A stretch of 61,020 nt of DNA. Origin: an uncultured Bacillota bacterium. GTDB lineage: Bacteria; Bacillota; Clostridia; Oscillospirales; Oscillospiraceae. The DNA lies in the NCBI GenBank assembly GCA_947649625.1, contig CANSSJ010000004.1:1-61020 (forward strand), written 5' to 3'. Of the stretch, positions 1 to 54,334 are shown one piece after another; within the stretch, counting starts at the first letter, position 1; every line of letters begins with the position of its first letter. The notes under the pieces were generated by a model. That model searched no databases. It saw only the letters and a list, made by a program, of their open reading frames with translations, and was not told where the DNA came from. Both the position numbers and the translations under genes were made by a program.

Positions 1-74
1 GCAAGTCCCTGGAGGAGGTCATCAACAAGCTGTCCATGATGGGCCTGTCGTTGGCGAGTGAGGAGAATAACTAA
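1..74 (+). CDS. rpoA: RNA polymerase alpha subunit, C-terminal end (partial)
   Basis: The first 74 bases encode the last 23 residues of RpoA and a TAA stop; the reading frame begins at base 3. The visible tail (KSLEEVINKL, then GLSLAS) matches the last helix of the alpha C-terminal domain, which contacts UP elements and activators. The gene continues to the left of the window. The rpoA-rplQ order is the standard end of the bacterial alpha operon, which supports the call. Confidence 0.85.
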   Translation, partial: KSLEEVINKLSMMGLSLASEENN

Positions 75-197
75 GCGCCGAATCCCCGAGCAGGGGAGCT
101 TGGACCGGAGCGAGGAGGAGAAACCAAGACGCCGAAGGCGGCTGTTTCGAGTCCGAGACGGAGGGAAAGCGACCCGGTCGCGAGGGGACCGAGGCGT
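75..197 (+). ncRNA. Repeated structured RNA element, copy A (rpoA-rplQ gap)
   Basis: This element starts right after the rpoA stop. I can fold it by eye. A closing stem pairs 75-79 with 193-197. A hairpin pairs 84-87 with 93-96 and has loop GAGCA. A stem pairs 99-103 with 124-128 and encloses a 20-nt purine-rich loop containing AGCGAGG. A hairpin pairs 130-133 with 137-140. A hairpin pairs 175-179 with 187-191 and has a GCGA-starting 7-nt loop. The linker at 153-167 (CCGAGACGGAGGGAA) is unpaired. A second copy lies at 54026-54154 with the same loops but different, still pairing, stems. It could be a cis-regulator of ribosomal-protein operons, a processing site, or a dispersed repeat. I do not recognise a named family. 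The rest of the gap up to rplQ (198-300) shows nothing else clear. Confidence 0.6.
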
Positions 198-307
198 GAT
201 AACTAAGGCAAGGTGTATGTAACGTTCCGCCTTTCCTGCGGCTTTTGCCGTCAGAACTGAACGAATTTAGACTGATCCCGCCACGCGGGGTCGAAGGAGT
301 GTTTCTT

Positions 308-54025: not shown

Positions 54026-54154
54026 GCGCAGCGTCCGAGCCGTCGTGAGCAGCGACCCTGGACTGAAGCGAGGGATACAAACCAGGAAACGCGGAGCGTT
54101 TCTGTTTGTGTCCCGAGACGGAGGGAAGGGGAGCGTTGCGAACAGGCGAGGCGT
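54026..54154 (+). ncRNA. Repeated structured RNA element, copy B (rpsO-pnp gap)
   Basis: This is the second copy of the element at 75-197. The closing stem pairs 54026-54029 with 54151-54154. A hairpin pairs 54042-54046 with 54052-54056 and has the same GAGCA loop. A stem pairs 54057-54061 with 54082-54086 and encloses a 20-nt loop of the same length containing AGCGAGG. A hairpin pairs 54088-54092 with 54096-54100. The linker CCGAGACGGAGGGAA is identical (54113-54127). A last hairpin has the loop GCGAACA. Stem sequences mostly differ from copy A but still pair. After it, a 10-bp hairpin (CATAGGGCGG) lies at 54169-54201; the rest up to pnp shows nothing. Confidence 0.6.
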
Positions 54155-54334
54155 AACCACGATTGCCGCATAGGGCGGGCGTTTTCGCGCTCCGCCCTAT
54201 GTTCGCATATACCCCCGGCGGCTTTTCGGTCCATTTAGCAGTTGAACCTGGGCTTGGAAAACATTCCAAACCCGTATTCAAGTGCTAAAGGGCAGGAAGA
54301 TGCTCCGGGGAAACCAATGAAAAGGAGAATCCAC

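Follow-up and report, generated by a model that had tools for sequence, protein, structure and literature searches.

ERIC, also called IRU, is a 127-bp intergenic palindrome of enterobacteria, and, according to the accessible part of PMC2229807, it is co-transcribed with its flanking genes and has an orientation-dependent effect on the upstream mRNA. The same part of that paper describes a proposal that NEMIS RNA is processed by RNase III. REPs are 20-40 bp long, and one of their ends bears a GTAG or CGTC tag (PMC3733652, available portion). In E. coli, ribosome stalling is reported for the subset of REPs which lie no more than 15 nt from a stop codon (PMC12306157, whose available portion cites earlier work for this). 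In the cip-cel operon of Ruminiclostridium cellulolyticum, the available portion of PMC10311766 describes intergenic stem-loops which stabilise transcript ends and guide cleavage. Candidate structured RNAs have also been collected from the human microbiome, and some of them are palindromic and some lie near ribosomal protein genes (PMC8040213, main text).

In this study, we followed up two elements in a 61,020-nt stretch of DNA from an uncultured member of the Oscillospiraceae (the window). A sequence-only reading had pointed to two related structured elements near rpoA and rpsO, each starting close to a stop codon, and both observations hold: copy 1 starts on the TAA of rpoA, copy 2 starts 5 nt past the TAA of rpsO, and two covariance models (CMs), R1 built from seven copies of the source genome and the broader R2, place them within the boundaries given in Table 1. 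The relatedness of the two copies is beyond chance, with CM scores of ~2e-30 for copy 1 and ~1e-28 for copy 2, both of which belong to the training set of the model. Their GC contents are 0.65 and 0.62, and their fold z-scores are -2.4 for copy 1, with 2 of 200 shuffles folding as well, and -3.9 for copy 2, with 0 of 200. R2 finds no further element in the rest of the window. The sequence AACTAAGGC at the 3' end of copy 1 repeats AACTAAG of the 5' flank of this copy, and, judging from the letters, it could be a target duplication or the remnant of a second copy.

Table 1. Coordinates of the two element copies and of other features in the window
Feature	Position	Strand	Basis
Element copy 1 (between rpoA and rplQ)	72..203	+	CM R1 134.7 bits, R2 123 bits; blastn family
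rpoA stop codon TAA, the first three bases of copy 1	72..74	+	sequence; orthologous gaps
Outer stem GCGCC of copy 1, partner GGCGT at 193-197	75..79	+	MFE fold; pair counts
Purine-rich internal-loop strand GGACCGGAGCGAG, conserved, copy 1	102..114	+	alignment of copies
Apical hairpin CGCC-GAA-GGCG, copy 1	130..140	+	fold; helix 11 in pair counts, 95.2% paired
CGAGACGGAGGGA, facing strand of the GGACCGGAGCGAG internal loop, copy 1	154..166	+	alignment of copies
Outer stem 3' side of copy 1	193..197	+	MFE fold; pair counts
AACTAAGGC at and just past the 3' end of copy 1	201..209	+	sequence; flank comparison
Skipping-rope RNA RF02924	47257-47348	+	49.1 bits
T-box leader RF00230	48860-49087	+	119.5 bits
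rpsO stop codon TAA	54020..54022	+	sequence
Element copy 2 (between rpsO and pnp)	54028..54160	+	CM R1 127.9 bits, R2 129.8 bits
Hairpin upstream of pnp	54234..54289	+	ortholog comparison of 30 loci; motif in 29/30

The element forms one long rod instead of a series of hairpins. Single copies fold over their whole length, and RNAalifold gives one rod for seven copies. In an alignment of 86 matches (84 distinct), which was fitted to the rod and thus favours it, the 37 rod pairs are standard in 93.9% of 3011 cells as compared to 72.7% after shuffling, the covariation score is 0.523 as compared to 0.164, and 34 of the 37 pairs show two-sided change. This agrees with the earlier suggestion of selection on RNA shape. 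The three local hairpins by which that suggestion had been made (CCCC/GGGG, CTTGG/CCAAG, and CGGTC/GACCG) are paired in 74.3% of cells in the same alignment, as compared to 71.4% after shuffling, with a covariation of 0.164 vs 0.142. None of 500 shuffles reaches 74.3% and three reach a covariation of 0.164, and partners slid out of register are paired in 25-55%. We rejected these hairpins in favour of the rod (93.9% vs 74.3% paired), which does include the fourth proposed pair, the apical CGCC/GGCG. Changes in the stems which keep pairing do occur. The loops and linkers described as kept are indeed conserved, and most of them turn out to be the purine-rich sides of internal loops which alternate with short helices along the rod. 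In the modelled fold, tandem G.A pairs could form across these purine-rich sides.

The ends of the element read NAAGCG...GCGTGAN and include conserved mismatched positions. The typical length is ~130 nt, with variants of 39-46 nt, 63-88 nt, and 182-186 nt. The 39-46 nt variants keep both ends, and, from their sequences, the shortest forms seem to have arisen by deletion between GTCGTGAGCA and GTCGCGAACA, two strands which resemble each other. The bases flanking AAGCG and GTGA show a T..T and G..C dependence, which could come either from pairing or from target duplication. The ratio of G.T to A.C in the stems is 226:81 in copies in sense orientation and 30:11 in antisense copies. This similarity indicates a strand preference independent of local transcription, which could also be explained by selection acting on a DNA intermediate, single-stranded and folded.

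The covariance-model search of relatives proposed in the sequence-only reading brought up many further copies. Using copy 1 as a query, blastn finds seven further places in the 2.24-Mb draft genome from which the window comes, four strong (E 1.7e-57 to 8.1e-15) and three weaker (E 0.001 to 0.047), copy 2 being among the latter. R1 counts eight copies in this genome and matches 43 of the 64 genomes of the genus (E up to 1e-3), and a dispersed RNA repeat, offered before as one option among several, is supported. Beyond the genus, R1 matches 40 of 300 sampled genomes of the family, in 18 of 106 genera (E up to 1e-4), and three of 391 genomes of the class, two of which are from the same family and include the window's own genome. 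In the order, R2 matches 12 of 295 genomes, two of them in other families. Seven distant stretches from these two genomes and the class-level one (L300-L306) have the rod form, with similar ends, differing outer stems, and a GAGCAG or GAACAG strand. R2 matches six of the seven. The exception is L303 (G818:C11), which was in the genome search list, yet R2 finds nothing in this locus at E up to 0.01.

A pattern scan of named genomes found at least 119 stretches. Among the 80 stretches listed, those with informative names are nearly all from Oscillospiraceae and related Clostridia, and the carriers named among these matches are Pseudoflavonifractor, including Pseudoflavonifractor phocaeensis, Flavonifractor, Intestinimonas, and uncultured relatives. 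One pattern match in a Planctomycetota genome (L098) has no CM match and was ruled out as a copy. As the sequence-only reading had supposed, the element corresponds to no named family in Rfam 15: at gathering scores, a scan of the window gives only the T-box leader and the skipping-rope RNA of Table 1, both away from the copies, and searches with both copies (E up to 5) and six distant loci (E up to 1) give weak matches below the gathering scores, which we take as chance. We also found no published description naming the element, albeit supplementary tables could still hold one, and the family is apparently unnamed.

The element is present in phage contigs as well. A single query, the element of L051, has no blastn match among isolated phages (INPHARED) and plasmids (PLSDB). 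In IMG/VR, eight stretches match the pattern, and the CM confirms five of them (L307, L308, L310, L311, L312), of which L308 and L310 are the same sequence. The IMG/VR contig of L312 carries terminase, portal, and major head genes. There, the TAA of the major head protein gene marks the start of an array made up of two full copies and one short copy, and the reading frame of the neighbouring gene reaches its TGA within a tandem pair, in the first of the two copies. Over ~3 kb of this contig (L312:1900-4727), four CM matches were found together with one copy and a short form recognised by eye.

The element looks mobile, with near-identical copies at unrelated loci, filled and empty orthologous sites, and tandem and short forms. 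Pairs of copies within the source genome are 99% identical at sites by murE and rpiR-type genes, 95% at sites by rpoA and RNase-type genes, and 94% at dnaK and rimP sites, and the 60-nt flanks of such pairs are unrelated, with 37-61% identity under forced global alignment. We sampled orthologous gaps from 30 of 54 genomes for rplQ, 30 of 52 for rpsO, and 30 of 57 for dnaJ, and scored presence by eye; the rplQ locus L216 and the dnaJ locus L268 could not be parsed. In the rpoA-rplQ gap, a full-length copy is present in four genomes (L193, L194, L203, L209), a longer related form in L217, and short remnants in at least three (L201, L205, L222), and no element is seen by eye in most of the remaining genomes. 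After rpsO, the window genome, L230, L233, and L243 have a filled site, as does L242 with a longer form; L232 and L252 hold short forms there, and the site is empty in all the others of the 30 loci. Eight relatives (L224, L226, L227, L229, L236, L237, L245, L248) have a filled second site in the same gap, in a hairpin loop before pnp. In the dnaK-dnaJ gap, five of the 30 genomes have a copy at the same place.

Two or more copies form arrays at 34 of 210 sites. The bases before a following copy or fragment match the 5' flank of the first copy over 2.07 nt on average as compared to 0.99 nt after shuffling (61 cases, from which 31 internal or contig-start copies are excluded), and none of 5000 shuffles is as high. 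At 35 of the 206 sites which had sufficient downstream sequence, out of 210, a stretch of 12-46 nt just downstream resembles the element's own 5' arm; the controls are 3.8% using other arms and 0 of 206 with random sequence. Between the filled rpsO site of the window and the empty one of L227, any duplication is at most 1 nt. Across 283 loci, paired ends span ~30 to 330 nt and no gene-carrying form was found; the two longest spans rest on weak end matches, and 12 five-prime ends have no partner. As a candidate mobiliser, PF01797 (RAYT, Y1 tyrosine transposase) was rejected: the source genome has none despite its eight copies, and across the genus 16 of the 25 genomes which have PF01797 carry elements, as do 27 of the 39 genomes lacking it, so that no association is seen.

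These data bring up a serious rival to any role in the transcript, namely that the element is a purely selfish palindrome, recognised as a folded single strand, whose fold serves its own mobility as DNA. Its placement at stops would then come from a target preference, for AAGCG-like sites and TAA, and from the removal of harmful insertions. The presence/absence polymorphism and the recent copies fit this, as does a strand preference which is the same in sense and antisense copies. Furthermore, conserved facing G.A positions keep the two ends from being identical inverted repeats in double-stranded DNA, and TAA is over-represented at element-adjacent stops (58 of 84, compared with 564 of 1143). 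Some empty rpoA sites, L206 and L208 among them, already contain AAGCG, but empty rpsO sites such as L227 do not have it at that place. A target motif alone predicts insertion into both strands of intergenic DNA and no peak at stop codons, in contrast to what was observed. Taken together, we regard a purely selfish element as possible, though on balance doubtful.

The peak at stop codons was seen as follows. From 265 CM rows we obtained 252 unique copies at 210 sites, and, after exclusion of 40 sites lacking one or both neighbours, 170 sites representing 117 distinct loci. The sites came from CM and pattern matches, and strong matches are therefore over-represented; neighbouring genes were called with a simple codon-usage gene finder and not taken from curated annotation. 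None of the 210 sites is inside a predicted gene. The upstream and downstream genes are on the same strand as the element at 129 of the 170 sites; the arrangement is same/opposite at 17, opposite/opposite at 18, and opposite/same at six. The element starts between -3 and +6 nt of a same-strand upstream stop at 76 of 170 sites, as compared to 10.1 +/- 2.9 expected under uniform placement within the gap and random orientation, a peak of ~7-fold. When one site per upstream-gene cluster is taken, ~41 of 105 are near stops vs 6.5 expected, and ~90 of 105 are on the same strand. The stop-codon placement is unusual and well supported. At 23 of the 76 stop-adjacent sites, or 27 of 84 if single-neighbour sites are counted too, the stop codon is itself the first three bases of the element. 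At 22 further sites, a number which depends on the gene finder, the upstream frame is predicted to continue into the element and to terminate there, in 15 cases at a TGA which lies 8-21 nt from the element's start. Three genomes (L042, L048, L185) show this for one and the same upstream gene, whose product ends in ...FKLQ and whose stop codon is supplied by GCGCTGA of the element. The same-strand upstream stop is more than 6 nt away at 48 of 170 sites, and more than 15 nt away at 47 of these, and the upstream gene is on the opposite strand at 24 of 170.

The stop-adjacent upstream genes are of many kinds. The 81 upstream proteins analysed, out of 84 near-stop genes (L022, L233, and L243 were left out), match 78 Pfam families in all, and the 25 families shown include HSP70, S10, GyrB, RpoA, L1, S15, and EF-P as well as ATP synthase F, enolase, GrpE, and phage tail sheath. 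Genes with codon usage of the highly expressed type are over-represented upstream of the element, with a median codon-bias percentile of 0.82, the median downstream being 0.67, against a background of 781 genes pooled across species. Paired with their own downstream genes, upstream genes show no excess codon bias (34 of 65 pairs, p 0.28).

The element is very probably not a sensor of ribosomal operons. The sequence-only reading had tied it to operons for ribosome or RNA functions, and had considered sensing of ribosome assembly or growth rate, and a conserved cis-regulator of ribosomal-protein operons would account for the copies after rpoA, rpsO, and the S10 and L1 genes. However, the same operons of many close relatives do not contain the element, unrelated gene families lie upstream of it, as the 78 Pfam families for 81 proteins show, and copies are found in a phage structural operon. 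Neither the restriction to such operons nor the sensing role is supported, and we consider a regulator of this kind extremely unlikely. A stable GC-rich hairpin after a gene could also be an intrinsic terminator or attenuator, but by inspection of the listed flanks a U-tract is as a rule absent past the 3' end, co-directional genes lie on both sides at most sites, and a separate palindrome follows the element in the rpsO gap, which makes a terminator very unlikely.

Our preferred reading, in which we have somewhat more confidence than doubt, is that the element is an ERIC/REP-like non-autonomous mobile palindrome which settles at stop codons and, transcribed together with its neighbours, works as an RNA rod between cistrons. 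Its action in the transcript is argued from its orientation, operon context, and stop abutment; fewer than half of the sites start at a stop, and the strand preference in the stems is independent of local transcription, both of which speak against such a role. We infer that RNA is the functional form, that it has an effect on the mRNA, and that a mobilising enzyme exists. The element, also seen in phage contigs, would copy itself within and between Oscillospiraceae genomes, and its sites are largely in operons of well-expressed genes, oriented with transcription and often abutting or overlapping the upstream stop. Co-transcribed with the operon, it would fold into a single rod of helices alternating with purine-rich loops. 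At the stop codon, the rod would most likely shield the upstream cistron from 3'-5' exonucleases and/or give a processing site, and separate terminating ribosomes from the next start.

An alternative effect on the message is that the rod stalls the terminating ribosome and lowers upstream expression, as a translational regulator like stop-proximal E. coli REPs. The rod starts at or a few nt past the stop, with the same spacing as that given for ribosome-stalling REPs in the available portion of PMC12306157, but the upstream genes are mostly of housekeeping and highly expressed types, where a stall would be costly, and we consider this quite unlikely.

Returning to the mobile palindrome acting as an intercistronic rod, a bolder version, fairly improbable but worth stating, is that insertion is guided by translation stop codons. 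The 5' end of the element would take over, abut, or supply the host stop, giving junctions such as TAA|GCG, TAG|AAGCG, TAA|GAAGCG, or a TGA lying a few bases into the element. As intercistronic RNA rods which disturb their surroundings little, copies might thereby spread among operons of highly expressed genes, bacterial and phage alike. The element would move as a folded single strand, and the machinery for this, as yet unrecognised, would also make precise tandem copies which carry a few bases of the target.

Other features near the copies were also observed. The hairpin TTTAGCAGTTGAA...TTCAAGTGCTAAA before pnp is present in 29 of 30 loci (L223-L252) and has no credible Rfam match. Its loop is highly variable, with several unrelated palindromic repeats inserted there, and it holds the element in relatives and no element in this genome. 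This hairpin may be a leader regulator of pnp and an insertion hot spot. Past copy 2, at 54169-54201, lies the palindrome CATAGGGCGGGCG...CGCTCCGCCCTATG, and similar palindromes are seen by eye in most of the rpsO-pnp gaps examined. At L054, L060, and L069, element copies adjoin a GGGTGGAACCGTG-like sequence, a putative T-box, one of them in the opposite orientation. In eleven dnaK-dnaJ gaps (L254, L257-L259, L264, L265, L267, L271, L280-L282), other families of palindromic or direct repeats seem by eye to be present, and therefore several competing intergenic repeat families may exist in these genomes.

If the preferred reading holds, gut bacteria of a large group which has received little study have an ERIC/REP-like system of their own, with a link to stop codons far sharper than random placement gives. 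It would also offer testable ideas, a mobile palindrome tuning mRNA ends and termination in the most-expressed operons, and translation termination itself marking the insertion site. The covariance model could let annotators name many unexplained intergenic stretches. As a caution, a ribosomal-protein neighbourhood alone is weak evidence for a ribosomal-protein regulator.

In comparison with described systems, the element is like ERIC/IRU in its similar size, long stem-loop, intergenic position, many copies, and non-autonomous nature. By description, it is set apart as follows: its hosts are Oscillospiraceae, it is GC-rich with no TA termini, and it has conserved purine-rich internal loops, stop-codon abutment, and tandem arrays. 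Among the features that define ERIC and MITEs, it is non-coding, about 100-200 bp, and dispersed, with a long stem-loop, but it is neither A+T-rich nor bounded by terminal inverted repeats ending in TA. Like E. coli REPs, it is a palindrome found after genes, and in both cases a subset lies within 15 nt of a stop; unlike REPs, it is ~130 nt long with different ends, and no tyrosine transposase was found in this genome. With NEMIS/Correia, RUP, YPAL, and similar MITE-like repeats of bacteria it shares a small size, non-coding nature, and folded transcripts. Most of those have TA terminal inverted repeats and target duplications, whereas in this element mismatches are conserved between the facing ends and signs of duplication are partial. 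The cip-cel stem-loops are likewise intercistronic in a clostridial operon, but, in the available portion of PMC10311766, they belong to one operon and not to a dispersed mobile family. Unlike a ribosomal-protein leader, the element is not conserved in position within the same ribosomal-protein operon. The main text of PMC8040213 names neither Flavonifractor nor Oscillibacter, and one of the models in its supplement could equal this family. A role at message ends draws precedent from stop-proximal REPs, ERIC effects, and clostridial stem-loops, as described in the available portions of PMC12306157, PMC2229807, and PMC10311766. The element is apparently a new family of a known kind, the bacterial mobile palindromic repeat.
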